Shown here piece by piece: positions 42,692-56,607 of a DNA stretch of 64,000 bases. The stretch spans positions 1,612,001-1,676,000 of the forward strand of contig NZ_JBANDL010000002.1 in NCBI RefSeq assembly GCF_037027445.1. Reading direction: 5' to 3'. Within the stretch, counting starts at the first letter, position 1. Each line of letters opens with the position of its first letter. The stretch is from Lysobacter firmicutimachus (GTDB lineage: Bacteria; Pseudomonadota; Gammaproteobacteria; Xanthomonadales; Xanthomonadaceae). Position numbers and translations under genes: made by a program. The notes under the pieces are model-generated. The model ran no database searches. It saw only the letters and a list, made by a program, of their open reading frames with translations, and was not told where the DNA came from.

Positions 42692-43375
42692 ATGACGCAG
42701 ACGGCGATCCCCGACGTATCCCTGGTCGACAACACCGAACAGCGCACGCCGCTGGTGTTGGTGCTCGACTGTTCCGGCAGCATGAACGGCCAGCCGGTGC
42801 AGCAGTTGAACGAGGGCCTGAAGCTGCTCGAGCGCGAACTCAAGGACGACGTCATCGCGGCCAAGCGGGTGCGCGTGCTGGTGATCCGCTACGGCGGCTT
42901 CGATCACGCCGAAGTCGTCGGCGACTGGTGCGATGCGATGGATTTCGCCGCGCCGGCGCTGGAAGCCGACGGCACCACGCCGACCGGGCGCGCGGTCGAA
43001 CTGGCCCTGACCGAAATCGAGAACGAGAAGCAGCGCTTCAAGCAGGCCGGCGTCGCCTATACCCGGCCGTGGCTGTTCCTGATGTCGGACGGTTCGCCGA
43101 CCGATGCCTGGGAAGCGGCGGCCAAGCGCGCGCGCGAAGCCGAATTGGCCAACAAGGTCGCGATTTTCCCGATCGCGGTCGGCGAGGGCTCGCAGGAACA
43201 GGCCATGGGCCAGTTCAGCAGCAAGGGGCTGGCCGGAGTGAAGCGCCTGCACGGTCTGCAATTCCGCGAACTGTTCCTGTGGCTCAGCGCGAGCATGCAG
43301 GTGGTGTCGCAGTCGCGGCCGGGCGGACAGGCGCAATTGCCTTCCACCGACACTTGGTCCGCGGTGCCGACCTGA
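42692..43375 (+). CDS. TerY-like von Willebrand factor A protein
   Basis: 227 aa, single vWA domain. The metal-ion-dependent adhesion site is intact: DCSGSMNG (Asp26, Ser28, Ser30), Thr in DGTTPTGRA and Asp in LFLMSDGSPTD. In TerY-P modules such a vWA protein scaffolds a PP2C phosphatase and a kinase. The next two genes encode exactly those partners 13 and 4 bp apart. Cytosolic; the signal is unknown. A classical terD/terC set is not visible here. Confidence 0.9.
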   Translation: MTQTAIPDVSLVDNTEQRTPLVLVLDCSGSMNGQPVQQLNEGLKLLERELKDDVIAAKRVRVLVIRYGGFDHAEVVGDWCDAMDFAAPALEADGTTPTGRAVELALTEIENEKQRFKQAGVAYTRPWLFLMSDGSPTDAWEAAAKRAREAELANKVAIFPIAVGEGSQEQAMGQFSSKGLAGVKRLHGLQFRELFLWLSASMQVVSQSRPGGQAQLPSTDTWSAVPT

Positions 43376-43388
43376 GCGGCGCCGGGTC

Positions 43389-44147
43389 ATGGGCTGGCAG
43401 GTACATGCGGCATCGGCGACCGGCAAATCCCACCTCGACAAAGGCATCCCGTGCCAGGACGCGTTCGCGTACCGGGTCGACGGCGAACGCCTGGTCGCGG
43501 CGGTATGCGACGGCGCCGGTTCGGCCGCGCACAGCGAGATCGGTTCGCGGTTGATCGCCGATGCGGTGGTCGCGGCGCTGGCCGAACGGTTGGCGGCGCA
43601 GCCGCAGTGGTTGCAGGCCGACGAGGACGGCTTCGCCGGGTTCGCGGGCGAGGCCGTCGCATTCGCCCGCGAGGCCCTGGTCGCGCGCGCGCGGCGCGAC
43701 GGCGCGGCCTTGTCGAGCTATGCCGCGACTCTGGTGGCCTATGTCGGCGACGCGCAGCGCGGCTGGTTCGTGCATGTCGGCGACGGTCTCGGCGTGGCCG
43801 AGCCGGCACAGTCCGACGCGCCGGCGCGGATCTCGTTGCCGCACAACGGCGAATACGCCAACGAAACCTACTTCGTCACCGGCGAGGCCTGGCGCGGCTG
43901 CCTGCGAGTGCTTGCGGTGAGCGAGCCGGTGGAGCGGGTGGCGTTGATGTCCGACGGCGCGATGCCGTTCGCGATGCAGAAGGGCAATGCCGGTCTGTAT
44001 CGTCCGTTCATGGACCCGGTCGAGCGCTATCTGCGCACGGTCGACGAAGCCGCAGGCAGCCGCGCCTTGCACGGCACGCTGGACGATCCGCGCACGCACG
44101 GCATCACGTCCGACGACAAGACCCTGCTGATCGCGCTGCGGAGTTGA
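43389..44147 (+). CDS. PP2C-family protein phosphatase (TerY-P module)
   Basis: 252 aa, PP2C fold. Metal-binding aspartates appear in CQDAF (Asp24), VAAVCDGAGSA (Asp41), VHVGDG, LMSDG and the C-terminal GITSDDKTLLIAL. Expected to remove phosphate from Ser/Thr targets of the following kinase. Short intergenic distances on both sides indicate one operon. Confidence 0.88.
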   Translation: MGWQVHAASATGKSHLDKGIPCQDAFAYRVDGERLVAAVCDGAGSAAHSEIGSRLIADAVVAALAERLAAQPQWLQADEDGFAGFAGEAVAFAREALVARARRDGAALSSYAATLVAYVGDAQRGWFVHVGDGLGVAEPAQSDAPARISLPHNGEYANETYFVTGEAWRGCLRVLAVSEPVERVALMSDGAMPFAMQKGNAGLYRPFMDPVERYLRTVDEAAGSRALHGTLDDPRTHGITSDDKTLLIALRS

Positions 44148-44151
44148 ACCG

Positions 44152-45582
44152 GTGACGACCAGTCCGGTCAGCGGCAGCGGCATCCGCATCGGCGACCGGC
44201 GCACCCGCCTGGGGGCGCTGATCAAGAGCGGCGGCGCGGGCAGCGTCTACCTGCTGCCCGAGTTTCCCGACCGGGTGGCGAAGATCTATCACGAGCGGGT
44301 CGATCCGCCGAGCTATACCGACCGCGTCGAGGCCATGCTCGAGCTGCGTCCGCAACTGCCCGACCAGTTCGAGGGCGGCAAACGCTACGTGCAGATCGCC
44401 TGGCCGGACGCGACCGTGCGCGACGAGCGCGGCCGCTTCGTCGGGTTTTCCATGCCGGCGCTGGACGTGCAGTCGACCTCCGAACTGGAGCAGGTGCTGC
44501 AGGAGCGGCAGGCGCGCGCCGCCGGCCTGCCGGTCGGGCTGGGGCCGAAGATCACCCTGGCGGCCAACCTCAGTGCGGTGCTCGCGGCTTTGCACGCGCA
44601 GCACCACTACGTGGTCGATCTCAAGCCGGTCAATCTGCGTTTCTACCGCGCCTCGCTATACATCGCCTTGCTCGATTGCGACGGCTTCAGCATCCAGGGC
44701 CGCGGCCGGCGCTACTCCGCGCCGCAGTTCACCCCGGATTACCTGGCGCCGGAGTTCCAGCAACGCGGGCCCGATCCGCTCGGCGAGGAGGCGCAGGATC
44801 GCTTCGCTTTGGCGGTGGTGATCTTCCAACTGCTCAATTTCGGCCTGCATCCCTATACCGGCAAGCCCGCGGCCGATCGGGTGCCTACCGACATCCCCAG
44901 CCGCATCCGCGAGCGCTACTACGCCTACGGTCTGCGCGCGCACCGTTTGATGGCACCGAGCCCGGTCAGCGCCCACGGCAGCGTGCCGCGCGAATTGCGC
45001 GAACTGTTCGACCGCGCCTTCGGCGACGGCGGCGAGCGGCCCAGCGCGGCCGATTGGAGCGCGGCGTTGCGCGATTACGCCAAGCCCTCCAGCGGCAAAC
45101 TGGTGGTATGCAAACGCGAGCGCGAGCATCAGCATTACGCCGGCCAGGCCTGCGCCTCGTGCGCGCGCCAGGACTTGTTGGCCAAGACCGCGCGCAAGGC
45201 CAAGCCGCGGCCGGTGGCGGAGCCGCCGCGCGCGCCGCCGCAAGCCGCGGCCGCCCGGTTGCGTGCGCCGCGTTTGGGCCGGCCGCCGCCGCCGCGACTG
45301 ACGCCCGCACCGCCGCCGGCGCGTATGCCGCAGCCGGCATGGCTGGCCAATCTGCGCCTGGCCACGCAATCGCGCGGCATGCTCGCGATCGCCTTTCCGG
45401 TGCTGTTCGCCTTCATCGCCCAGGGCCTGCATCGTCTGTATGCGGCCTTGCAACCGGACCCGGCCAATAAGCCGCTGGAAGCCTGGGTCGACGCGATGCT
45501 GATGACCGGATTGGGCGCGGTCTTCCTGGTGCTGTGCTGGGTATTCGCCGTGACCCTGCCGCGAATGCTGAAGAACCGATGA
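44152..45582 (+). CDS. Membrane Ser/Thr kinase-like protein (TerY-P module)
   Basis: 476 aa, GTG start 4 bp after the phosphatase. Kinase domain about 15-300: glycine loop IKSGGAGSVYLL, catalytic Lys44 (RVAKIYH), catalytic loop YVVDLKPVNLRF (Asp, Lys, Asn present, HRD changed to VVD), LLDCDGFSI in place of DFG, and YLAPEF. After it comes a CKRE...GQACASC zinc-like motif, a proline-rich linker and two C-terminal membrane helices (GMLAIAFPVLFAFIA, MLMTGLGAVFLVLCWVFAV). The DGF form is usual in this group, so activity is likely. Stop overlaps the next ATG. Confidence 0.85.
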   Translation: MTTSPVSGSGIRIGDRRTRLGALIKSGGAGSVYLLPEFPDRVAKIYHERVDPPSYTDRVEAMLELRPQLPDQFEGGKRYVQIAWPDATVRDERGRFVGFSMPALDVQSTSELEQVLQERQARAAGLPVGLGPKITLAANLSAVLAALHAQHHYVVDLKPVNLRFYRASLYIALLDCDGFSIQGRGRRYSAPQFTPDYLAPEFQQRGPDPLGEEAQDRFALAVVIFQLLNFGLHPYTGKPAADRVPTDIPSRIRERYYAYGLRAHRLMAPSPVSAHGSVPRELRELFDRAFGDGGERPSAADWSAALRDYAKPSSGKLVVCKREREHQHYAGQACASCARQDLLAKTARKAKPRPVAEPPRAPPQAAAARLRAPRLGRPPPPRLTPAPPPARMPQPAWLANLRLATQSRGMLAIAFPVLFAFIAQGLHRLYAALQPDPANKPLEAWVDAMLMTGLGAVFLVLCWVFAVTLPRMLKNR

Positions 45583-47174
45583 TGCGCATCGTCCTGCCGA
45601 TGCGTCTGCGTCCGTCGTGGTGGTCCTGGTTCAAACTGGGCGTGCTGGCGTTCTTCGTCGTACTGGTGTTGGCGCCGTATACCGGTTGGCTGATGTCGCT
45701 GCCGATGTGGGCGATGACCGTGTTCGGGCAATGGTTGTCGCCGCCGCAAGCGTCGAACGGCGAACGCTGGTTCCGCGCCGGTCTGGTATTGGCGGGCGTG
45801 CCGAGTCTGCTGGCGGTGGCTTGGCGCGCCTACGAGGACCGCGACCGCGAACTGGCCACGCGCACCGCGATCGCAGCCGCGGTGTTGGGCGCGTTGTTGC
45901 TCGGGCATGGCTATATGACGGTGCGGCGCGAGCGCGAGGCCGGGCAGGATGCGGCGCGCTCGCGCCTGACCGCGGCGCGCATGCAACAGGCCGGGGTCAC
46001 GCCGGCGATCGATATCGACCCGCCGGCGGGCCTGAGCCAGGCCGACTACGAAGCCGAAAGCGCGCGCCTGATCCGCGAGTCGGCGCGCAACGCGGCGCGC
46101 GGCGACGGGTTCTATCGCCAGCAACTGGCGTTGCTCGGCCAGCTCGCCCGCGACCGGCCGCAGTCGGGCGATGCCGCGGAGTATCAAGCGGCGATGGCGG
46201 CCTACCAGCGCATGGTCGCCGAAGACGAACGTCGCCCCGGCCGCGATCCGCAAGGCGATGCGCCGATGGAGCGGCAACTGGCGATCGCGGTCGACGCCGA
46301 TCCGCGCCGCGCGCTGGCCGCGCGCGAACTCGGCATCCGTCGTTTGCGCCGTTTCATGGACGATCTGTCCGCGCCGTCCGAAGCCGGGGACATCGGCTCG
46401 CTGAAACTGGCGCGATTGCGGCGCGAGCGCGATGCGGCGCAGGCGCTGTTCGAGCGTGCGTTGCGCGTCGATCCGGACTTCGATGGGGCTTGGCGAGGCT
46501 GGGCCTGGACCTGGCTCTACCGGCAGCCGGAGTTGGCGCTGGGGGCCCTGGTCATCGACGCCGAATTGCGCAACGGCGGCAGCGGGTCGCGCAAGCTGCG
46601 CGAACGCGTCGACGCCGCCGGCGGCCGTGAGGCGCAGCCGTATTTCGCGATCCTGCAGGCGCAGGCGGAGGTCGTGGCGCTGAAACAACGCCGCTCTTCG
46701 TTGTCGCCGGCCCTGCTCGAACAGGCGCGCCGGCCGTTGCCGGCGGCGCCTTCGGCGGCGCGCGCGATCGCCGGCGAAGGCGACGCGGGCAAGCCGGACA
46801 CCAACGCCCTCAGCCGCGCGCTCGACGATTTTCTGAGCGCTGCGGACGAGGGCGGGCCGAACGTGGTCGAGCGCTTCTCCGAAGCTTGGCAGCGCGGCGC
46901 GCTGGTCGTGGCCAGCGACCAGGATCTGTTCCAGTGGCGTGGCTACGGCGAAGCCGCCAAGCGCTTCGACCAGCGCTTCGCCGGCGTGCCGCGGTTCCGC
47001 GTGGTGCGCGGCTTCGAACTGCCCGCCGGGCTCGGCCGCAGTACCAGCGCGATCCTGTTCGTGCCGATCGGGGTCGAACCGCCGCGCGGCGATCTCGGCC
47101 AGTCGGTGCTGCTGCACGAAGCCGGTCGCGAGTGCGAGGGCAGCAACTGCCCGCGGGTGTACGGGCGGGGCTGA
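45579..47174 (+). CDS. Membrane protein with helical repeat region, TerY-P neighbour
   Basis: 531 aa. The ATG at 45579 overlaps the kinase stop; a second ATG is at 45582. Two or three N-terminal membrane helices (WFKLGVLAFFVVLVLAPYTGWL, IAAAVLGALLLGHGYMTV) are followed by a long, Arg/Glu-rich helical region with TPR-like spacing (AQALFERALRVDPDFDGAW) and a C-terminal beta-rich segment. Likely the membrane partner or substrate of the phosphorylation module. No defined family. Confidence 0.7.
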   Translation: MMRIVLPMRLRPSWWSWFKLGVLAFFVVLVLAPYTGWLMSLPMWAMTVFGQWLSPPQASNGERWFRAGLVLAGVPSLLAVAWRAYEDRDRELATRTAIAAAVLGALLLGHGYMTVRREREAGQDAARSRLTAARMQQAGVTPAIDIDPPAGLSQADYEAESARLIRESARNAARGDGFYRQQLALLGQLARDRPQSGDAAEYQAAMAAYQRMVAEDERRPGRDPQGDAPMERQLAIAVDADPRRALAARELGIRRLRRFMDDLSAPSEAGDIGSLKLARLRRERDAAQALFERALRVDPDFDGAWRGWAWTWLYRQPELALGALVIDAELRNGGSGSRKLRERVDAAGGREAQPYFAILQAQAEVVALKQRRSSLSPALLEQARRPLPAAPSAARAIAGEGDAGKPDTNALSRALDDFLSAADEGGPNVVERFSEAWQRGALVVASDQDLFQWRGYGEAAKRFDQRFAGVPRFRVVRGFELPAGLGRSTSAILFVPIGVEPPRGDLGQSVLLHEAGRECEGSNCPRVYGRG

Positions 47175-47264: not shown

Positions 47265-48662
47265 TCAAGCGTTCGGCAGTTCGCCGACTCCGACGCCGAT
47301 GATCATCGGCACTTCCGAGGTCGTGGTGCCGGTAAAGGTGCGGGTGGCCGGATCGGCGCACCAGCCGGCGGCCCGGCTGCCGCCTTCGGCTTCGAAGGTG
47401 AAGGGCCCGATGCGCAGCCCGGTCGCGGCCTGGAAGGGATAGCCGAAGCGGCGGAAGGTCGAGGTGGTGGTGCGGATCGCGAAGCTGGGCTTGTAGCCGA
47501 CGTACATCGAGCGTTTGACCAGGCCGAAGAAGCCTTTCTCGCCGAACACCGCCTGGCTGCGCTCGTCGCCGAACGCGCTGTAGCCGTGCGCGAACGGACC
47601 GTCGATCAGACTGCGGGCGAAGTCGCCGTCGTACCAGTCGCCGGGTGCGATGGCGATGCGGTCGACCGCGCGGAAGTCTAAGGACAGTTCGAGCTGGTGG
47701 TCGTATTCGAACTCGTCGATGCGTTCCCAGCGGTCGTCGATGCGCAATTGCCAGAACAGACGACGGACCTTGGTCTGTCGGCCGGCCCAGGTCTGGCTGA
47801 AGTCGTAGGGCGCTTCGCGGTTGCTGAAGCCGAGGGTCGCGCCGGCCGGGGCCTCGCCGCGGCGGGCGCGTTCGGTCCAATGTTCGGCGTGCTCGGCGAT
47901 GCGCCAGTCCGGCACCTTCGGCATGCGCAGCAGGTCCAGGTCGGCCAGGCGCACCCGATGGGCTTCGTCGCCGCAGCGGCGCTGCGCGGCGCCGAGCTCG
48001 GCATGGTCGCACTGCGCGACCAGCGCGGCGTAATGCGCCTGTGCCTGGTTCATCGGCACTTCGGCGGCGACGATGCGATTCTGGTACGGGCGGCCGTCGC
48101 GGCTGCCCAGCCATTGACTGAAGCTCGGCGCGTCTTCGCCGCCGCGGGTGGCGTGCACCGATGCGGCCGAGGTCGCGGCCAGGGTGTACTGATTGGTCGC
48201 AGCGACCAGTTCGTCTTCGGCGTCGATCAGGTGCCGGCGCAGGCTCGGGTATTCGGTCTGCGTCTGGGCCACGTTGAGGCACTGCTGATAGGCCTGGTGC
48301 ACCGTGTCGCCGCTGGAGACGAAGGCGGCGATCGCGCTCCATTGCGGCACGGTGGCGCAGAAATCGAACTGGGCGCCGGAAATGAAGCCGGCCTGGGTGG
48401 GCTTCCAGTCCCAGGGCTGGGCCGGGTAGATCAGCTGGAAGTCGTCCGGCGAGGCGTACAAGGAATCGATCAGGGCGCGATACAGCAGGCCCCAGGGCTT
48501 GTCGTCGAAGTCGACGTTGGCGGCCAGGCCGGCGTCGAGCCGGGCCAGTTCGAGCAGACGCCGGTCCTGGGCGCCGTGACGGAACTGCGAGAGCGGACCG
48601 AGATCGTCCTGCACGTCGAGGGCCTCTTCGGCGTCGGGCGCCAGGTAATCGGACTGGGACAT
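47265..48662 (-). CDS. Unknown-family protein A (paralogue of the 50186-51571 gene)
   Basis: 465 aa from the ATG at 48662; no signal peptide, no membrane helix. It shares the full architecture of the 461-aa gene downstream: KPWGLLYRALIDSLYASPDDFQLIYP, GFISGAQFDFCATVPQW, DTVHQAYQQCLNV, a helical middle, PAGATLGFSNREAPYDFSQTW, and a C-terminal beta-rich part with AVFGEKGFFGLVKRSMYVGYKP, ATGLRIGPFTFEAEGGS and VPMIIGVGVGELP. Similar ends occur in uncharacterised bacterial and fungal proteins; no activity is known to me. It is divergent from an RNase-like gene, and the space between carries two copies of a direct-repeat motif. Confidence 0.8.
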   Translation of the reverse strand: MSQSDYLAPDAEEALDVQDDLGPLSQFRHGAQDRRLLELARLDAGLAANVDFDDKPWGLLYRALIDSLYASPDDFQLIYPAQPWDWKPTQAGFISGAQFDFCATVPQWSAIAAFVSSGDTVHQAYQQCLNVAQTQTEYPSLRRHLIDAEDELVAATNQYTLAATSAASVHATRGGEDAPSFSQWLGSRDGRPYQNRIVAAEVPMNQAQAHYAALVAQCDHAELGAAQRRCGDEAHRVRLADLDLLRMPKVPDWRIAEHAEHWTERARRGEAPAGATLGFSNREAPYDFSQTWAGRQTKVRRLFWQLRIDDRWERIDEFEYDHQLELSLDFRAVDRIAIAPGDWYDGDFARSLIDGPFAHGYSAFGDERSQAVFGEKGFFGLVKRSMYVGYKPSFAIRTTTSTFRRFGYPFQAATGLRIGPFTFEAEGGSRAAGWCADPATRTFTGTTTSEVPMIIGVGVGELPNA

Positions 48663-48791
48663 GAGCGGCTCCTTGCTGCTGCCGCGCGATCGGCGGCCGT
48701 GCCCGGCCTCGCGCGCCGGACGGCGGCGCGATCCCGGCGGCGGCACGCGGCGGACCGGTGTCTCAGCGTTGCTTGAACCGGACACGTCCCA

Positions 48792-48810
48792 CCTTACGGC
48801 AACCTTACGG
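48792..48810 (+). promoter_or_regulatory. Direct repeat CCTTACGG-N3-CCTTACGG, site 1A
   Basis: Two perfect CCTTACGG half-sites with 11-bp period, 130 bp before the start of paralogue A. The one-turn spacing is what PhoB/OmpR-type winged-helix proteins bind in tandem. A matching site lies at 51700-51718. Confidence 0.7.
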
Positions 48811-48877
48811 TTGCTCTTTTTGAGATGGATCAATGCTTTAGCGGATCGCGCGCGACTGCGACGCCGCGTGCCGGCGA

Positions 48878-48896
48878 TCGTAAGTTGTCGGTAAGG
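48878..48896 (-). promoter_or_regulatory. Direct repeat in opposite orientation, site 1B
   Basis: Minus-strand CCTTACCG-ACA-ACTTACGA, same 11-bp period as site 1A but facing the RNase-like gene. A matching site lies at 51822-51840. Confidence 0.65.
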
Positions 48897-49060
48897 CGAG
48901 AGGTGCGCGGCGCCGTCATGGTCGATCTGCGGACGCCGATCCCCGGCGTCGCGGACCGCGCGGCCGGTCCGCTCGCACCCCGGCAGGGAGGCGGCCGTCC
49001 TCGTGTGCCGTATGTCGTCGCGCGCTGCCGACCGCTGCAGCGACCTCCAGGAGAACGCCC

Positions 49061-49456
49061 ATGAACGCCAAGCTCGCCACCCCCGTGCTGCTCGCCGTAC
49101 TGGCCGCAGCGCCCGCCCTGGCCCAGGCCGATGCGGCCAAGCCGCCGGTTTGCCGCAGCCTGCCGCCGGACATCAAGGAAGCCATGCGCACCATGTCGTA
49201 CTGCATCACCAATCCGAATCCGATCCCGGAGTGCGCCCGCGCCGGCATGGACGTGCAGGTCTACAACAACGACCCGGCCAAGCTGCCGCGCGCGGCGCGC
49301 GGCCAGCAGTACTGGGAGGGCAAGATCCGCAAGGACGACGGCGCGGCCGGCGAGCGCCGTCTGGTCTATCTGGTGACCATGGGCGAGCGCAAGAACGTCG
49401 TGGCGATGCGCTATTACACGCCCGACCATTACCGGACCTTCTGCGAGATCCAATGA
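49061..49456 (+). CDS. Secreted RNase T1/Sa-like ribonuclease (N1 family)
   Basis: 131 aa, signal peptide MNAKLATPVLLAVLAAAPALAQA. The C-terminal part matches the microbial guanyl-ribonuclease fold: YWEGKI (Glu86), GERRLVYLV (Arg99/Arg100) and YYTPDHYRTFCEI (His123) align with the Glu-Arg-His catalytic set of RNase Sa (HEYTV, TRRII, DYYTGDHYATF). Four cysteines (31, 48, 58, 128) may form two disulfides. No barstar-like inhibitor gene is nearby; export may make one unnecessary. A secreted RNase suggests nutrient scavenging or competition. Confidence 0.72.
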   Translation: MNAKLATPVLLAVLAAAPALAQADAAKPPVCRSLPPDIKEAMRTMSYCITNPNPIPECARAGMDVQVYNNDPAKLPRAARGQQYWEGKIRKDDGAAGERRLVYLVTMGERKNVVAMRYYTPDHYRTFCEIQ

Positions 49457-49556
49457 TCGACCGGGCTACCGGTCCCAACCTGGGCCCGGCGCGGCTCGCG
49501 CCGGGCCTTTCCCGCGTTGGCCCGACGTGCGTCGCGCTGGGCCTTTCCTATGTTCG

Positions 49557-49590
49557 GGGTAGGAGCGGGCAAGCCGCGCCCCCCGCGGAC
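49557..49590. repeat. GTAGGAGCGG-type intergenic repeat, copy 1
   Basis: GGGGTAGGAGCGGGCAAGCC followed by GCG-rich sequence; short palindromic element of the kind found many times in Xanthomonadaceae genomes. Copy 2 lies 84 bp further on. Confidence 0.6.
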
Positions 49591-49640
49591 GCGTAGATAA
49601 ACCAGCGTCTTCTCTATCGATCGAAGCCCGAAACCATCGC

Positions 49641-49680
49641 GGGGGTAGGAGCGGCGCAAGCCGCGACCGCGGTCTCGCGG
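49641..49680. repeat. GTAGGAGCGG-type intergenic repeat, copy 2
   Basis: GGTAGGAGCGGCGCAAGCCG followed by CGACCGCGGTCTCGCGG, including the palindrome CCGCGGT. Confidence 0.6.
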
Positions 49681-49980
49681 TCTCGCGGCGTTCGTCGTTC
49701 GCAGGTCTGTGAAGCTTCAAAGCTATAAGGCGCCAAAGCCAAGCTTCCGTCTGCAAGCGGCCGGGCCACTTTCCTTGTCCAAGGCGACAAAGTCCTACTG
49801 GCTTTCCTTCGGTCAACGTAACCAAAGAAAACGCCATGGTGGTTTCGGTATGGGACGGGGGTTGTGCAGGGCTGCTCCGCACAGGCCCTCCCTGGCCTGG
49901 CTGCGCACGGCCCGCTTCCCTGCGGGCCGCCTCCGGGGCTTCAGGGCGTTCTCGCAAGTTCGCTGCGGCGCCAAGCTCTT

Positions 49981-50037
<57 letters not shown>

Positions 50038-50185
50038 TCCGGGCATCCGGCGAAGGATGCGACGAGGACGACCGAACGCATCCGCCGGGGATGCCGATGC
50101 TGCCTGCGCAAACGGCGACGCCGGCCGGGAGGCCCGGCCGGCGTCGCTTCGGTTTCTCCGCAGCGCGGTCGCGCCGGGTTTGCGC

Positions 50186-51571
50186 TCAGGGCAGCTTGGA
50201 GATCGTCACGCCGATGATCAGCGCCTGGTTCGAGCTGGTGGTGCCGCTGAAGGTCTGGCCGGAGGCGCTCGCGTTCCAGCCGGCATGCTCGCTGCCGCCG
50301 GCGGCTTCGAACACGAACGGCCCGATGCGCAGTCCGGTCGCGGAACCGAACTTCTGCCGGAACGAGTCGAAGGTCGACTTGCTGGTGCGGATCGTGAAGG
50401 CCGGCTTGAAGCCGACGATCATGCCGGTCTTGAGCAGGGTGAAGAAGCCCTTCTCGCCGAACACGGCCTTGTTGCCGTCGCCGCCGAACTCGCTGTAGCC
50501 GCGGGTGTAGGGACCGTCCGACAGGCTGCGCACCACCGGGCCGTTGTACCAGTCCGCAGGCTGGATCTGGATCTGGTCGATGGCCTGGAACTCCAACGAG
50601 ACTTCGAGCTCGTTGTCGCTCTCGAACTGGGTCACGCGTTCCCACTTGCCGTTGACCTGCACTTCCCAGAACCACTGCAGCACCGCCGCCGAGCCGCCGG
50701 CCCAGGTCTTCTTGTAGTCGTAGGACGAGTCGCGCGAGGTGAAGCCCATCGTCGCCCCGGCCGGCCCTTCGTTCGCCATCACCGCATCGACCCAATCGGC
50801 CGCGTTCTGGGCCACGGCCCAGTACGGAACCATGGGGTAGTTCTGCAGCCCGGGGGACTCCAAGTGCGCATAGAAATCCTGGTTGGCGTACTGCTTCTGC
50901 GCTTCGGCCAGGCCGGGCGTGTTGGCTTCCGCAACCAGGGCGTTGTAGGTCGTCTGTGCCTGGGTCAGCTTGGTGTCGGCGGTGGCGAGCTTGGTCGCCC
51001 AGCCCTTGCCGGCGAGCGAGCCGAGCCAGTCCGAGAACGAAGGGTCGTTGTCCTTGACCTGGTCGCCGTAGCGGATTTCGGCTTGGCGATAGATGCTGTC
51101 GTAGTTGTTGCTCGCCGAGGTCATCTGCTGGTCCGCGTCGCGGATCTTCTGGCGCAGCTTGGCATCGTCGGTCGCGGCGACGATCACGTTGAGGAACTGC
51201 TGGTAGGCGTCGTTGAAGCGATCGCCGCTGGAAATGTAATTGCCGACCGCGCTCCATTGCGGCATGGTCGAACAGAAGTCGTATTGCGCCGAACCGATGA
51301 AGCCGGACTGGGCGGTTTCCCAGTTCCACTTGGTGAACGGGTACACCAGCTGGAACGTCTCCGGCGTCACGCCGAGCGAGTTGACCAGCGCGCTGTACAG
51401 CAAGCTCCACGGCTTCTGGTTGTAGTCGGCCGCGGCGGCGGCGTCGCCGGTGAGCGCGCGCTGTTGCACTCGACGCTCGTAAGCCTGATCGCGGAACGCG
51501 GAGACGATTTCGTCGTTGCCGTTGTCGCCCGGTTGGGCGCTGTTGGCGTCCTGAGGTTGGTTCTTGAGCAT
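50186..51571 (-). CDS. Unknown-family protein B (paralogue of the 47265-48662 gene)
   Basis: 461 aa, cytosolic by sequence (no signal peptide or membrane helix). Same order of blocks as paralogue A: KPWSLLYSALVNSLGVTPETFQLVYP, GFIGSAQYDFCSTMPQW, GDRFNDAYQQFLNV, PAGATMGFTSRDSSYDYKKTW, AVFGEKGFFTLLKTGMIVGFKP, ATGLRIGPFVFEAAGGS and ALIIGVTISKLP. The N-terminal ~40 residues are Gln/Asn-rich and variable. It is divergent from a secreted protein gene, and its upstream region repeats the motif layout of paralogue A, so the whole locus looks duplicated. Function unknown; the beta-rich end could be a carbohydrate- or lipid-binding or aerolysin-like fold, but this is speculation. Confidence 0.8.
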   Translation of the reverse strand: MLKNQPQDANSAQPGDNGNDEIVSAFRDQAYERRVQQRALTGDAAAAADYNQKPWSLLYSALVNSLGVTPETFQLVYPFTKWNWETAQSGFIGSAQYDFCSTMPQWSAVGNYISSGDRFNDAYQQFLNVIVAATDDAKLRQKIRDADQQMTSASNNYDSIYRQAEIRYGDQVKDNDPSFSDWLGSLAGKGWATKLATADTKLTQAQTTYNALVAEANTPGLAEAQKQYANQDFYAHLESPGLQNYPMVPYWAVAQNAADWVDAVMANEGPAGATMGFTSRDSSYDYKKTWAGGSAAVLQWFWEVQVNGKWERVTQFESDNELEVSLEFQAIDQIQIQPADWYNGPVVRSLSDGPYTRGYSEFGGDGNKAVFGEKGFFTLLKTGMIVGFKPAFTIRTSKSTFDSFRQKFGSATGLRIGPFVFEAAGGSEHAGWNASASGQTFSGTTSSNQALIIGVTISKLP

Positions 51572-51699
51572 GGCCCTGACTCCCTGAGCCCGCGCTTGGC
51601 GGGTCCGTGCGGATGCCGCGCGCCGGACGGCGCCGCGGTCCCGGATGCGGCACGGCGCCGTCCGAGGACGCCGACTGTGCGCAGTCGCGCCGCGCGGCG

Positions 51700-51718
51700 C
51701 CTTACGGCAACCTTACTG
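51700..51718 (+). promoter_or_regulatory. Direct repeat CCTTACGG-N3-CCTTACTG, site 2A
   Basis: 11-bp-period direct repeat 129 bp before the start of paralogue B; nearly identical in sequence and distance to site 1A upstream of paralogue A. Confidence 0.7.
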
Positions 51719-51821
51719 TTCCAATCGGCCCGCGATTTCATGCGCTTGCGGCGATGTCCACGCGTGTCGGCAAGAAGCGGTGATTAACGGTGATTTCGCG
51801 CAACGGCCATTGCGGAAGCGA

Positions 51822-51840
51822 TCGTCAGTTGCCGGTAAGG
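51822..51840 (-). promoter_or_regulatory. Direct repeat in opposite orientation, site 2B
   Basis: Minus-strand CCTTACCG-GCA-ACTGACGA, matching site 1B, and 105 bp before the secreted-protein gene at 51945. Confidence 0.65.
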
Positions 51841-51944
51841 CGAGGTGCGGTCTGCGTCGCCAAAGTCGCCTTGCGATACCGCCAGGCGGTACGACGCGAC
51901 GGTGTTGGCCGTCGCGAAATTTTTTGCCGATGAGAGAACTCGCC

Positions 51945-52481
51945 ATGAAAACATTGCGATTGCTGGCGCTGCCGTGGCTGATGGCGTTGGCGACGGCGCC
52001 GGTTGCGGCGTCGCCGCGAATCGAGGCGTACGAGACGACGTCGCAGGCCGGAGACAGCGACGATCTGGACAAGAAGGACGTGGAGCGGCGATCCAAGCTC
52101 GAGGGCTGCCAGTTGGTTCCCTATGCATCGCGGCGCGATAACTGCGTCACGGAAAGCCTGGGGCTGGACGGGGGGCAGGCCTGCGGCGCCAGGCCGTGCT
52201 CGCGCGATACGCCCAAGCTGAATCCGGTCCTGTTGCGGGCGTGGAAGAATTGCGCGGACCGGCGCGGCTTCATCGTCGACGACTACCGCGATACGCTGGC
52301 CGCGATCGACCGCTACAAGGCGTCGGCGAAGTACAAGGATTGGACCGAGGACGAGCGCGCCGCCCTCGATATCCTGACCGGCAAGATCGAAACCGCGCGG
52401 CGCGCGAATACGAAAGGGCTGAGCAACGCCCACACGATGGCGTTCCAATGCGAGCGCCTGATCCGCGGCAGCGGCGGCTGA
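51945..52481 (+). CDS. Small secreted protein of unknown family
   Basis: 178 aa, signal peptide MKTLRLLALPWLMALATAPVAAS (an in-frame ATG at 51930 would only lengthen it). The mature part begins with an acidic stretch (GDSDDLDKKDVERR), then six cysteines (EGCQLV, DNCVTE, QACGARPCSRD, KNCADRRG, FQCERL) and helical segments. No family recognised. It occupies the same divergent position relative to paralogue B as the RNase-like gene does to paralogue A. Confidence 0.65.
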   Translation: MKTLRLLALPWLMALATAPVAASPRIEAYETTSQAGDSDDLDKKDVERRSKLEGCQLVPYASRRDNCVTESLGLDGGQACGARPCSRDTPKLNPVLLRAWKNCADRRGFIVDDYRDTLAAIDRYKASAKYKDWTEDERAALDILTGKIETARRANTKGLSNAHTMAFQCERLIRGSGG

Positions 52482-52537: not shown

Positions 52538-52972
52538 CTAGTTGGCTTTATTGCCGGCCTTCCTGACCTGGCCCGCCTGCGGAGTGATCTCCGGGTCGTT
52601 GCCGACTTGCGGATCGCAGGCCACCAGCACGCCGCGCTTGCCGTCGCGCACCAGCACGGAGAAGAAGATCAGGGTGGGGGTATCGTTGCGGTTCATCATG
52701 CTGACGCTGCGGCCGTCGGAGGCGATCTTGATGTCGTAGATCTGGTTCTTAGCGTCCGAGGTGAGCAGGCTCTCGATCACGAAGTGCTTGGAGACGCCTT
52801 CGTCGAGCTGATAGACCATCTGCACCGGACTTTGGCCCTTGTAAGCCATGACCACGTCCGGCGAGAAGCTGTAGAAGTATTCGCCGCGGCCGGCGTTGCC
52901 GCCGAACACGACGTAGGCGACGGTGAATTCGATGACGATGGGGGTCTTGGAGGCGGCTTGGGCCTTGGGCAT
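52538..52972 (-). CDS. Hypothetical soluble protein
   Basis: 144 aa, no signal peptide. Beta-rich sequence (TPIVIEFTVAYVVFGGNAG, EYFYSFSPDVVMAYKGQSP, IYDIKIASDGRSVSMMNRND, TLIFFSVLVRDGKRGVLVACDP). I recognise no family. It lies 27 bp downstream of the large STAND regulator on the same strand and is probably co-transcribed with it. Confidence 0.6.
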   Translation of the reverse strand: MPKAQAASKTPIVIEFTVAYVVFGGNAGRGEYFYSFSPDVVMAYKGQSPVQMVYQLDEGVSKHFVIESLLTSDAKNQIYDIKIASDGRSVSMMNRNDTPTLIFFSVLVRDGKRGVLVACDPQVGNDPEITPQAGQVRKAGNKAN

Positions 52973-52999: not shown

Positions 53000-55900
53000 C
53001 TAGTGGGTGGATGCGTCGTAGAAGGCGATGAAGTCGGGGTGGCGATAGCCGCTGCTGTGCAGCCATTCGAGCTGGCGCGTCGCCGCGTCGCGCGCGCCGA
53101 GATGGATTTGCGCGCGGGACCAGGCATCCAGCAGGGAACGGTCGCTGGAATCGGCGACGCGTCCGGCGACCAGGTCGCGCACCCGGGTCCAATCGTTGCG
53201 GGCGAGTTCGGTCTGGCCGCGGGCGGCGAGCCGTTCGCCGCGCCAGGCCAGGGCCCAGGCCAAGGCGGCCAGGCTCTTGGCGTCGCCCGGCGCCTGCGCC
53301 TGCAGCGCGGCGAGTTCGGCGACGGCGCGATCCACCAATTCAGGCTGAGTCGCTGTCTGCGGGTCGACCTCGGCCAGGCGCAGGTTCAGCAGCGCGCCGA
53401 CCCGACGCCACTCCGGCAAGGGCTCTTGCTCGGTCAGCAGCGGCGCCAGACTGTCGCGCCCCTCGCGCAGCAGCGCGACCGCGCGTTGGCGCGCGCCGCG
53501 CAAGGTCTCGATCCGGCCCGCATGCGCATAGGCGTGGGCGAGATCGCGGCGCCAGGTACTGTTGTCGGGTTGCTGGCGGACCAGCGCGCGCAACAGGCTC
53601 AGGGTTTCGCCGACTTCGGCCGCGGCCTGCTCGGTATGGCCGCGGTCGATGGACAGGATCGAGGTGCGCAGCAGCGATGTCGCCAGTTTGCGCCGCCAGG
53701 CGTCGGCATCGGGTTCGCTGGCGACCAGTTCGCGCAGCATCCGGTTCTGCAGTAAATAGCCTTGCGCGGCGTCGTCCAGTTGTCCGCGCGCCTCCTGCGA
53801 ACTGCTGAGCCAGGACAGGCTGTCGACCAGATCGAAGCGCAGCGGCTTGTCGTCGGGCTTGTCCGCCAGCAACCGCTGCTTGATCGCCACCGAGCGCGCG
53901 AACAGGTCGGCGGCTTCGGCGCTGCGCTGGCGGGTGTGGGCGAGGGTGCCGAGATTGTTGAGCGCGTAGGACAACTCCAACTGCCAGCGCGGGTCGGCCG
54001 GCGCGCGCGCGACCAGCGTCTCGCTGGCGCGCAGATACTCGCGCCAGTGGGCTTGCGCAGCGTCGAGGCGCTTTTGCCGGAAGTCGTAATAGCCCTGCCA
54101 GTAGGCGACCGTGCCCGATTCGGCCAGCATCTCCGACGAGTCCGGGGTCGCTCGGCGAGCCTGGCGCAAGGCGGCCGCGGCGCGCTCGAAGGCCTGGTGG
54201 GCCTCGTCGAAACGCCCCTGGTTCATCAGCACTTCGCCCACCGTGCGCAGGGCGCGCACGTGGCTGAGCAGTTCGCGCGGCTGCATCCGCGCGTCCGGCA
54301 TGCGCTCCAGATAGCGCAGGGCCTGGCTGCCGACGCTGTCGAGCAGCTTGAGATTGCCGAGCGGCCGCAGTTGCTCGGCCAGGTCGCCGAGCATGAAGCC
54401 GACCAATTGCTGGGCCTGGTCGCGATGGCGTTCGGCTTCGCGCCGCGCCTGCCAGGCCTGCAGGCCCAACCCGGTCGCGGTCAAGGCCAGGGCGCCGAGG
54501 CCGCCGAGAGCGGCGGTGCGCAGCCAGCGTTTGCGCTGTTGCTGGCGTTCGCAGGCGCGCAGGAACTCGCGTTCGCCGGGGCCGAGTTCGGCCGGCAGCC
54601 GGCGTGCGGCTTCCTGCGCTTCGGCCAAGGGGCGGCCCGGGTTGAGCAGGTGATCGGCACGGCGTCCGCCGTCGACCCAGCGCCGGGTCGCGCGCTGCAA
54701 GCGTTCGCGCGCCTGCAGCAACTGGCGGTTGTCGTGCGCCCATTCGCGCGCGCGCGGCCATTGCCGCAGCAGGGCCTCGTGGGCGACGCCGAAGCCGGGC
54801 TCGCCGCCGCTGAGTTCGCCGACGAACAGGCGCGCGCGGATGAAGGCCTCGGCCAATTCGCGTGCCGCCGGCGCTGCCAGCGACGACCACGATACCCGGC
54901 GCGCGGTGACCGCATCGCTGTCCGGGCGGATCACGATCAGCGCCGCCAGCACCTGTTCCAGGCTGGCCTGGGCATCGCTGGGCAGTTCGCTGTAGACCTG
55001 TTCGGCGCGGTGGGCGAGGGCGCCTTCCAGCCCGCCGATCTCGCGGTAGGCGGCCAGGCTCAACACGCCGCCCGGGGCCTGGCGTTCGTACAGCGCCTGC
55101 AGAGTGTGCTGCAGCAGCGGCAGCGAATCGGGGTGCTGGGCGGCGGCGTCGCGCAGCAGGTCGTCCAGGCGCACCGAGCTGTCGGGGTCCTCTTCGAAAC
55201 TCAGGCCGGCCAATGCGGCCGGAGCGCGGATGATCTGGCCGATTTCGCCCAGGCGCGGGGTCAGCAGGTCGATATGGCCGTCGCCGGCCTTGAGCTCGGC
55301 GACGCCGGGCACCTCTTCGATCAGGCGCGGATAGAAATCGCTGCGGGTGATCGCGATCGCGGCCACGCCGGCGCAGCCGCACAGGTTGCGCAGCGCGGCG
55401 CCGAGTTCCTCGCGATCGCGATCGAGGATCGCCGGCTCGGCCACCGCCGCTTCGGCGTGGTCGATCACCAGCAGCAGGTGCGCATCGGCGGCGCGTTGCC
55501 CGCTCAGGCGCACGAAGGCGTCGGCGATGCGCGCCTGCACCGCGTCCGGCGCATCGCGCAACTGCAGCGCCAGCGTTGGCGCCTCCAAGGCCAGGAACAC
55601 CGGGCGGCCGCCGAGGCTCCAGCCGCACAAGGCCTGGGCCAAGCGCGCGAGCACGTCGCCGCCGCGGCAGATGCCCAGATCGAAGTACACCGTCGACAGT
55701 GCGTGCAGGCCGTCGAAGCCGCCGGCCTGTTGCAGCAGCGGCATCACCCCGGCGCGCAGCAGCGAGGTCTTGCCGCAGCCGCTGGCGCCGGAGACCAGGA
55801 CGAAACGGCGCTGGTTCTGCACCTGTTCGCGCAGGGTCGAGAGCAGGTCGGCGGTGGCGCGGGCACGGCCGAAGAACACGCCGGCATGGGCTTCGTCGAA

Positions 55901-56323
55901 CGAGCGCAGGCCGACGTAAGGGCTGCCCTCGGTCCAGGCGGCGGCGCGCGGCAGCCCGCTGCGGTAATCGTCGGGAAAGGCCACCGGCGCGACCAGTCGA
56001 TAGCCGCGCTTGCGGATGGTCTCGATGTACTCGGGTTCGCGGCTGCTGTCGCCGAGCCGGCGCCGCAGTTGGGCGATGGTCTTGTGGACCGGATTGTCGC
56101 CGTAGAAGGTGCCGCGCCAGATCTCGATCAGCAACTGCTCGGCGCTCACCACCTCGCCGGCGCGCTCGGCCAGCGCGACCAGCACTTCCATCATGCGCGG
56201 TTCCAGCGCGGTGGTCGTGCCGTCGCGGACGATGGCCAGGCGGTCGGGCTGGACCAGCAGGGCGCCGATGCGGAACTGCGACACCGCGGCGAGGTTTTTG
56301 ATCCGATCGATGCGTTGTGGCAT
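53000..56323 (-). CDS. Winged-helix STAND ATPase with TPR region (transcription regulator)
   Basis: 1107 aa from the ATG at 56323; upstream codons look untranslated. Residues ~15-113 form a PhoB/CadC-type winged helix (LEPRMMEVLVALAERAGEVVS, HKTIAQLRRRLGDSSREPEYI, ETIRKRGYRLVAPV). SPYVGLRSFDEAHAGVFFGR introduces a STAND-type P-loop ATPase with Walker A GASGCGKTS (179-187) and Walker B LLLVIDHAE. A membrane helix (LGGLGALALTATGLGLQAW) precedes a TPR-rich C-terminus (ELSYALNNLGTLAHTRQRSAEA). Such proteins couple an envelope or peptide signal to DNA binding. It lies next to the two loci bearing 11-bp-period direct repeats, which fit its DNA-binding domain type. Confidence 0.85.
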   Translation of the reverse strand: MPQRIDRIKNLAAVSQFRIGALLVQPDRLAIVRDGTTTALEPRMMEVLVALAERAGEVVSAEQLLIEIWRGTFYGDNPVHKTIAQLRRRLGDSSREPEYIETIRKRGYRLVAPVAFPDDYRSGLPRAAAWTEGSPYVGLRSFDEAHAGVFFGRARATADLLSTLREQVQNQRRFVLVSGASGCGKTSLLRAGVMPLLQQAGGFDGLHALSTVYFDLGICRGGDVLARLAQALCGWSLGGRPVFLALEAPTLALQLRDAPDAVQARIADAFVRLSGQRAADAHLLLVIDHAEAAVAEPAILDRDREELGAALRNLCGCAGVAAIAITRSDFYPRLIEEVPGVAELKAGDGHIDLLTPRLGEIGQIIRAPAALAGLSFEEDPDSSVRLDDLLRDAAAQHPDSLPLLQHTLQALYERQAPGGVLSLAAYREIGGLEGALAHRAEQVYSELPSDAQASLEQVLAALIVIRPDSDAVTARRVSWSSLAAPAARELAEAFIRARLFVGELSGGEPGFGVAHEALLRQWPRAREWAHDNRQLLQARERLQRATRRWVDGGRRADHLLNPGRPLAEAQEAARRLPAELGPGEREFLRACERQQQRKRWLRTAALGGLGALALTATGLGLQAWQARREAERHRDQAQQLVGFMLGDLAEQLRPLGNLKLLDSVGSQALRYLERMPDARMQPRELLSHVRALRTVGEVLMNQGRFDEAHQAFERAAAALRQARRATPDSSEMLAESGTVAYWQGYYDFRQKRLDAAQAHWREYLRASETLVARAPADPRWQLELSYALNNLGTLAHTRQRSAEAADLFARSVAIKQRLLADKPDDKPLRFDLVDSLSWLSSSQEARGQLDDAAQGYLLQNRMLRELVASEPDADAWRRKLATSLLRTSILSIDRGHTEQAAAEVGETLSLLRALVRQQPDNSTWRRDLAHAYAHAGRIETLRGARQRAVALLREGRDSLAPLLTEQEPLPEWRRVGALLNLRLAEVDPQTATQPELVDRAVAELAALQAQAPGDAKSLAALAWALAWRGERLAARGQTELARNDWTRVRDLVAGRVADSSDRSLLDAWSRAQIHLGARDAATRQLEWLHSSGYRHPDFIAFYDASTH

Positions 56324-56607
56324 CGCAGCGCACGCTCGTGGTTGGTCGTCGACGAGGGGAGGGCGCATGCCGGTGCATGCCCGCCCCGTCGTCCGCGCGA
56401 CCCGACATCGGTGCGGCAGGCGAGAGGCCGCGGCGCAGCGCCCCATCGCTAAGCCGGCGGAATCGGTGGAGCGCTAAAACTAGCAAAACCGTCGCTGCCC
56501 GTGTGTGTCCGCAAGCGGACTTTGCCGGCTGCGCCGGAATCGCGGGCGGTGGCCGCTATGGGGTCCGGTTTGCGTGAGCGCCGCGCGAGCGCGAGTGACG
56601 CGGCGGG
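56324..56607. other. Intergenic region upstream of the STAND regulator
   Basis: About 280 bp; no copy of the CCTTACGG repeat and no gene seen. Confidence 0.45.

Follow-up and report, generated by a model that had tools for sequence, protein, structure and literature searches.

A duplicated divergent locus of Lysobacter firmicutimachus as the probable private regulon of one AfsR-like STAND transcription activator

The window analyzed here is a stretch of 64,000 nucleotides from Lysobacter firmicutimachus (assembly GCF_037027445.1, contig NZ_JBANDL010000002.1, positions 1,612,001 to 1,676,000). Two paralogous genes of an unnamed family lie on its minus strand. Paralogue A (47265..48662, ATG at 48662) encodes 465 aa, and paralogue B (50186..51571) encodes 461 aa. 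The two proteins are co-linear and 45% identical. Identity by thirds is 42%, 34%, and 56%; conservation is thus strongest in the last third. A has no signal sequence, and an N-terminal hydrophobic stretch is absent from both proteins. By a simple hydropathy test it is also absent from 127 of the 128 family members among the matches listed. The initial annotation had described two signal-less paralogues of about 460 aa with the same block order and a conserved C-terminus, and this description holds.

The A/B family has at least 128 database members in several phyla, with members listed from Hoeflea, Arthrobacter, Moorea, and Hymenobacter. Among the matches listed, named members are called only hypothetical or uncharacterized. 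Pfam, NCBIfam, and PADLOC gave weak matches at chance level, PHROGs gave no match, and PDB sequences contained no convincing relative; no toxin or immunity domain was found in A or B by these searches. The family was found in 8 of 398 genomes in a search at the order level, and in 1 of 398, the window's own genome, at the phylum level.

Each paralogue is divergent from a different secreted gene, as had been noticed from the start. A faces a secreted RNase of 131 aa (49061..49456, plus strand), which matches Pfam Ribonuclease (PF00545) with an E-value of 2.9e-9 and 37.8 bits, above the cut-off of 24. Its Glu, Arg pair, and His appear to lie at places like those of the PF00545 family. Glu, Arg, and His are the catalytic residues of RNase Sa. 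The clade of the window RNase retains these residues, with one Arg in one member (L031). The nearest solved chain is 1py3 ("ribonuclease", E 0.0052), presumably RNase Sa2; in this alignment the Glu is one place off. A second RNase-like form, seen in eight Lysobacter loci, lacks the Glu, the Arg pair, and the His as judged by eye. No barstar gene is found beside the window RNase, and the RNase-barstar pair of this genome sits elsewhere. A function of A/B as RNase inhibitor was rejected, based on the absence of a barstar match in Pfam and on the position of the genome's barstar beside another RNase gene. B faces a secreted protein of 178 aa (51945..52481, plus strand) with a signal-like N-terminus and, by eye, six cysteines in the mature part. 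It has no Pfam match (scanned as 177 aa), and some of its Xanthomonas homologues are annotated as lipoproteins.

The initial annotation ended at 52481, but two more genes, both on the minus strand, belong to the locus. One encodes a regulator (53000..56323; the longest ORF starts at 56446), which combines in one chain an OmpR-type winged helix DNA-binding domain (Trans_reg_C, PF00486, 1.2e-17), an nSTAND1 NTPase domain with Walker A (PF20703, 1.5e-84), and TPR repeats (TPR_2, 2e-8). A SARP activation domain is not listed for it by Pfam. In some homologues, the NTPase domain is followed by a hydrophobic stretch (mean hydropathy up to 2.36); no clear one is seen in the window regulator. The other gene, just downstream of the regulator gene, encodes a small protein of 144 aa without visible signal (52538..52972). 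Its Cys-Asp-Pro, near the C-terminus, is invariant (19 of 19). Relatives of the small protein weakly resemble DP-EP (DUF1888): 4 of 19 match the Pfam model, with a best E-value of 0.0017. The window protein does not appear among the matches at a limit of E 1. Against the solved chain 3njh ("Peptidase"), the E-value is 0.016, and the Asp-Pro is aligned. The solved DP-EP member cleaves itself.

Both A/B intergenic regions contain two copies of a motif, inverted relative to each other. The motif is a 19-mer, an 8+3+8 direct repeat CCGTAAGG-TTG-CCGTAAGG. The copy facing A is exact (48792..48810, minus strand), and the -10-like hexamer AACGCT (48765..48770) lies 21 bp downstream. At the other three sites, the hexamer is 20 bp downstream: CATGGT (48917..48922) for the copy facing the RNase gene (48878..48896, plus strand), CACAGT (51674..51679) for the copy facing B (51700..51718, minus strand), and CAAAGT (51861..51866) for the copy facing the six-Cys gene (51822..51840, plus strand). 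The three are imperfect, with 3, 1, and 3 mismatches, respectively.

For each gene, the best match to the 19-mer in the 400 bp upstream was scored. It has 0–2 mismatches for all 21 A/B genes and 0–4 for all 18 secreted genes that are first in line. In 208 control windows, the best match has 4–8 mismatches, and four controls reach 4; the six-Cys gene of one locus (L025, 4 mismatches) is no better than these. The paired copies in the window, noticed already in the initial annotation, are thus beyond chance. Six RNase genes that are second in line have 5–7 mismatches. A -10-like NAnnnT is found 20–21 bp downstream of the motif at 52 of 52 sites, a spacing first noticed by eye at some of them; the best other pair of offsets gives 3 of 52. 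Among sites met later, all eight two-mismatch sites near a regulator gene have NAnnnT at the same spacing. A consistent -35 is absent. The idea that the motif is a GC-rich repeat arisen by chance was rejected, based on the control windows, the genome counts, and the fixed spacing. The literature search listed no text containing the letters of the motif.

This geometry suggests an activator-dependent promoter with the motif centred near -42. The repeats had been called operator-like. They are real, and the -10 spacing makes them better read as part of an activator promoter than as an operator without a sign. A repressor that keeps the genes off until a signal arrives is unlikely. It could draw on the TTGA seen about 17 bp upstream of the motif at several Lysobacter A-facing sites (not counted), but the fixed step of 20–21 bp to NAnnnT at every site fits activation, and AfsR, which has a similar layout, is an activator according to the passages available from PMC10936776.

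The module is conserved. In 19 of 19 non-redundant loci, the genes for the regulator and the small protein adjoin the A/B gene. Among 285 Xanthomonadaceae genomes, the motif with at most one mismatch is seen in 31 of 38 genomes with the regulator (counted at 52% identity or more, one partial gene included) and in 8 of 247 genomes without it. The association gives a Fisher value of 2e-27, not corrected for kinship, when these 285 genomes are taken as a subset of the 297 scanned for the motif. Exact matches number 29 in the 297 genomes, each in a genome that bears the module; a reversed pattern matches 27 places with at most one mismatch (hand count). Seven regulator genomes lack such a motif; five of them have a site with 2–3 mismatches and a -10 by the regulator gene, a combination seen in none of 160 shuffled loci, and the other two (G013 and G089) have no motif site. 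Eight genomes containing only a more distant regulator (37–41% identity) have no motif. In one genome (G067), the sole motif site and the regulator are on different contigs. The small protein without the motif is seen in G094, in G214, and at the second locus of G293. Initially, 14 motif places were classed as outside the module. Twelve of them were inspected (G198 and G236 excluded); the -10 is present at five (L106, L114, L115, L116, and L117) and absent at seven (L107 and L118–L123). The association between motif and regulator points to the regulator as the probable binder of the repeats.

Eleven Xanthomonadaceae genomes without A/B retain the regulator, the small protein, and the motif. 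The regulator and the motif are also present without A/B in two further genera, and in a genus lacking A/B, regulator loci (L116 and L117) came to light through the motif search. In the A/B-less loci, the motif faces other short ORFs (8 of 10), most of them with a signal-like start. In one genome, its presumed cargo includes a Gly-rich protein and, after it, a very large secreted protein. In two of the ten A/B-less loci inspected, the regulator gene is fragmented.

Strain HS124 (L003 and L042), a near copy of the window, is omitted from the counts. Of the 21 A/B genes, each with the motif upstream, 18 are divergent from a secreted gene. Homologues elsewhere therefore do have secreted divergent neighbours and the shared upstream motif. 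The three other genes (L004, L033, and L034) have no recognisable secreted neighbour, and two loci without a recognisable secreted gene contain only the A-facing motif. On the A/B tree, the type of partner changes three times, compared with a mean of 8.6 in shuffles, which ignore relatedness; none of 200 shuffles was as low. The partner type thus follows the tree, and the partners, described as variable in the initial annotation, are not freely so. Five genomes without A pair a B-type gene with a six-Cys gene, and eight Lysobacter loci without B pair an A-type gene with an RNase-like gene. These separate pairs and the retention of motif sites across genera are against a plain tandem duplication, in which an RNase-linked gene was copied, shared promoter sequence was left over, and no system exists. 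This explanation, which the paralogy of A and B and their similar upstream regions would favor, is very improbable.

A direct partnership, in which A/B would be the constant cytosolic component of an effector system and serve the adjoining secreted protein as chaperone, immunity protein, or co-effector, is somewhat unlikely. Besides the 18 divergent pairs and the partner types following the tree, both plasmid records inspected, of six with any match (distant relatives only, besides the query itself), agree with it, outside the module. On a Rhodobacter plasmid, the gene next to the relative encodes a six-Cys secreted protein, and a second family relative is divergent. On a Klebsiella plasmid, the next gene encodes a TRL protein with a lipoprotein-like start. 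However, three A/B genes are without such a neighbour, the motif faces other ORFs where A/B is absent, and shared regulation accounts for the pairing without protein contact. The effector-system proposal of the initial annotation is kept as regards pairing and shared motif, but not as regards A/B as the constant part, because the regulator and the motif persist in A/B-less genomes, facing other genes.

We therefore prefer another reading, with a probability of roughly three in four: a single AfsR-like STAND transcription activator controls the locus as its private regulon. This regulator with its private promoters would be the constant part, and A/B and the secreted proteins the cargo. A signal would release the STAND switch, two winged helices would bind the direct repeat side by side, and the bound regulator would recruit RNA polymerase to a promoter with the NAnnnT -10 and without a consistent -35. 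Four promoters, one per gene, would turn on A, B, the RNase, and the six-Cys protein together. A role in antagonism or defence can be speculated, in which the RNase and the small Cys-rich proteins act outside the cell, and A/B acts inside the cell or after release.

The A/B genes seem to be interchangeable cargo under a private switch of soil and plant bacteria. Whether the locus represents a hitherto undescribed class of Xanthomonadaceae effector island under STAND control, swapping cargo under a private promoter signature, is an evenly balanced question. Taken jointly, and at the same even odds, such an island would contain one wHTH-nSTAND1-TPR activator and a DP-EP-like, possibly self-cleaving partner as sensor or trigger. 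Its cargo would be swapped between species and comprise the A/B family, RNases of PF00545 together with their residue-losing counterparts, six-Cys lipoproteins, further small secreted ORFs, and, in one genome, the Gly-rich and very large secreted proteins. A kinase/phosphatase input might be added in Lysobacter. The unnamed A/B family gains a first handle, with a candidate switch and travelling companions. The promoter signature, if right, allows new effector genes to be sought from sequence alone, and by itself it would find new cargo if the island exists. It would also open STAND regulation in Gram-negative predators and plant-associated bacteria to testing.

The window RNase appears to resemble the RNase Sa/barnase family in the places of its three kinds of residues. 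It differs in having no adjoining barstar and in its residue-losing second form. The small protein resembles DP-EP (PF08985; 3njh) in that the profile can be aligned over its second half, including the Asp-Pro of ..DPQ..N.P, but the match is weak. The NTPase-based conflict systems of Kaur et al. 2020 (PMC7159879) likewise have STAND-type NTPases and TPRs beside variable effector-like genes, whereas here the STAND protein is a putative transcription factor with dedicated promoters; this layout is not described in the available portions of that paper. The domain order, DNA-binding, STAND, and TPR, is shared with AfsR, a large SARP of Streptomyces with an OmpR-type DNA-binding domain, NOD/STAND, and TPR. 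In the excerpts of PMC10936776, AfsR binds two 11-bp repeats, of which 8 bp are contacted and the last 3 are not, and phosphorylated AfsR is mentioned. The window sites are also direct repeats with an 11-bp period (8+3 bp), and kinase and PP2C genes adjoin Lysobacter loci. Unlike AfsR, the window regulator has an nSTAND1 domain and no SARP activation domain listed by Pfam, a DP-EP-like neighbour, and local effector-like genes as presumed targets. The afs box is 8 bp from its -10, not 20–21 bp, so the contact with the polymerase must differ. Based on this spacing, the regulator could be considered AfsR-like in its working without being filed as a SARP, and its repeats as a second and distant example of the 8+3 repeat logic of AfsR.

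Paralogue A (window positions 47265–48662, 465 aa) and paralogue B (50186–51571, 461 aa) are 45% identical, and their C-terminus is conserved as initially described, the last third being the closest (56%). They are the sole matches to their own family in the window genome (E 0.001). The family has only chance-level matches in Pfam, NCBIfam and PHROGs, and no convincing relative in the PDB. It is present in 19 of 297 Xanthomonadaceae genomes, including the window genome and strain HS124 (a named record), whose B copy is 99.8% identical to that of the window (the window itself resembles Lysobacter antibioticus), and additionally in one metagenome-assembled genome (L004). The locus set analyzed here contains 19 loci with 21 A/B genes; HS124 is excluded as a near copy of the window. 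Two database searches, with the best 8000 candidates scored in each, gave at least 128 related proteins, which we take, from their names, to span several phyla.

The divergent secreted partners proposed in the initial annotation are both seen. A is opposite a secreted ribonuclease (PF00545), and B is opposite a 178-aa secreted protein with six cysteines. Of solved chains, 1py3 is the closest to the window RNase (E 0.0052), with RNase Sa entries ranking next. By eye, the window RNase keeps the Glu, the Arg pair and the His of its own clade, residues with catalytic roles in RNase Sa. A second secreted RNase-like form is seen at eight Lysobacter loci (L032 and L035–L041), and is the only RNase form in L035 and L036. 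Because the Glu, the Arg pair and the His are all missing (by eye), this form probably no longer cuts RNA and is likely a catalytically dead twin. The RNase gene of HS124, the nearest strain, is disrupted (L003:12086–12478): it contains an in-frame stop as well as a stretch that is out of frame. Elsewhere in the window genome, far from the module, a barstar match is preceded by another PF00545 match at a distance of about 140 bp (G000:C2:5052776–5053461).

In the A/B tree, the A side pairs with RNase-like partners and the B side with six-Cys ones. Partner type changes three times on this tree versus a shuffled mean of 8.6, which indicates that it is inherited along the tree. The gene of L031 is B by the best BLAST match, yet it is placed on the A side, and its partner is an RNase. 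Since partner type follows the tree, the two pairs of L. antibioticus are both old and coexist, rather than stemming from a recent duplication.

Just past the feature of the initial annotation are a 144-aa small protein (52538–52972, minus strand) and a wHTH-nSTAND1-TPR protein with a Walker A motif (53000–56323, minus strand), here called the regulator. The regulator is the only above-cut-off nSTAND1 match in the window genome. In all 19 loci, both are within 10 kb of A/B. The opposite flank contains a group of vWA, PP2C phosphatase, kinase and TPR genes (42692–47174; PF00092, PF13672 and a below-cut-off Pkinase match). Matches to the PP2C, kinase and TPR genes are seen in 12 of 12 Lysobacter loci (HS124 excluded) and 0 of 7 other loci. 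This group is a possible input to the STAND regulator.

The small protein has an invariant Cys-Asp-Pro (19/19). A DP-EP match is seen in four of its 19 relatives (best E 0.0017), and the window protein has none at E 1. Its profile recovers 3njh, a solved "Peptidase" (E 0.016), and the alignment includes the C-terminal ..DPQ..N.P. The solved DP-EP member presumably cleaves itself; if the small protein does likewise, it could trigger the regulator switch.

The shared motif, as previously noted, is present in two inverted copies in both the A-side and B-side intergenic regions. Its best form is CCGTAAGG-TTG-CCGTAAGG. In the 400 bp upstream of all 21 A/B genes, the closest match shows 0–2 mismatches, and the A/B-facing copy is 120–136 bp from the gene start (165 bp in L004). 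First-in-line secreted genes show 0–4 mismatches (18/18), versus 4–8 in 208 control windows; the six-Cys gene of L025, with four, equals the best controls. None of six second-in-line RNase genes has its own motif, as would be expected of an operon. L033 and L034, with A and no recognisable secreted gene, contain the A-facing motif only. NAnnnT, a putative −10, is located 20 or 21 bp past the motif at 52 of 52 sites (21 A/B, 18 secreted, 13 other), which are related by descent and hence not independent events, and in part of which the spacing was spotted by eye prior to the count. At any other pair of neighbouring offsets, it is seen at three sites at most. A cleaner test comes from the eight two-mismatch sites met later near the regulator in other genera (L116, L117, two in L124, L126, L128, L129 and L130), all of which have NAnnnT at this spacing. 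The genes faced by motif sites belong to four or more unrelated types, and the motif is probably a promoter element.

Among the 297 genomes, the 29 exact motif matches are all in module-bearing genomes. With up to one mismatch, the motif is found at 59 places in 42 genomes, and a reversed-pattern control at 27 places (hand counts). The regulator at 52% identity or more is seen in 38 of 285 genomes, all of them assumed to be among the 297, and 31 of these 38 contain the motif, versus 8 of the 247 others. More distant regulators (37–41%) are seen in eight of the 247, all without the motif. Five of the seven exceptions have a motif with 2–3 mismatches and a −10 at 20 bp beside the regulator; no site was found in the other two (L125 and L131), and no such site arose in 160 shuffled loci. 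The motif search also uncovered regulator loci in two genomes of a genus that has neither A/B nor the usual small protein; a third genome (G110) carries its regulator on a different contig, which has a two-mismatch site of its own. These facts indicate that motif and regulator belong together. Outside the window genus, at L116 (9084–9635) and L117 (5150–5644), a secreted protein between two motif sites ends with IDPEL by eye, and is perhaps a secreted DP-EP relative.

A/B had been considered the constant element. This does not hold, as eleven genomes of genus g17 keep the regulator, the small protein and the exact motif without A/B. The regulator adjoins the small protein in all ten loci read, and the eleventh genome (G064) has a regulator match in the genome search. 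In L095 and L098, the regulator gene is in pieces with the exact motif kept, which could be decay or an assembly error. A short ORF of 74–153 aa is located 89 bp downstream of the motif in eight of the ten loci (six start with MRLV), and none is at that place in L097 and L099. The length range suggests that this ORF is fast-varying or decaying. In G067 (L114:9866–18280), the sole motif, on a different contig from the regulator, has a −10 and lies 111 bp upstream of a 404-aa Gly-rich protein; after this comes a 2324-aa protein that begins with a signal-like stretch and that by eye we take to resemble SpvB/RHS proteins. In G293 (L106:9439–9794), a motif with a −10 outside the island is 112 bp before a 74-aa protein, a possible regulon member in trans. 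The small protein is seen without the motif in G094, G214 and a second G293 locus, which counts against a tight bond between them.

The initial annotation also implied that A/B works directly with the secreted protein beside it. Six plasmid records have a family match, and the gene neighbourhoods of two were read. On a Rhodobacter plasmid (L055:7647–10582), two distant A/B relatives (profile match probability 99.1) are mutually divergent with a six-Cys secreted gene next to them, and on a Klebsiella plasmid a TRL gene is next to the A/B relative. The annotation tables of both loci list no nSTAND-like product by name. Due to these contexts, direct pairing keeps some weight, although we consider it unlikely. 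The secreted RNase and Cys-rich cargo, the cargo turnover and the STAND switch might point to antagonism or defence, a tentative reading at somewhat less than even odds and weaker than that of activation. Literature searches for the motif letters and combined terms found no paper, and the portion consulted of a 2020 paper on NTPase conflict systems (PMC7159879) has no such layout. The A/B family and the combination of components appear undescribed; the component parts are of known kinds.

The 20–21 bp spacing puts the motif centre near −42, where activators that overlap the −35 region are positioned. According to the consulted part of a paper on AfsR (PMC10936776), AfsR binds two 11-bp repeats, with 8 bp of each contacted and the last 3 not, and has a phosphorylated form. 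The present motif shares this 8+3 layout. Based on this layout and the centre near −42, we estimate the probability that the motif acts in activation at about 0.77. The AfsR site described there is 8 bp from the −10, while the motif here is 20–21 bp from it.
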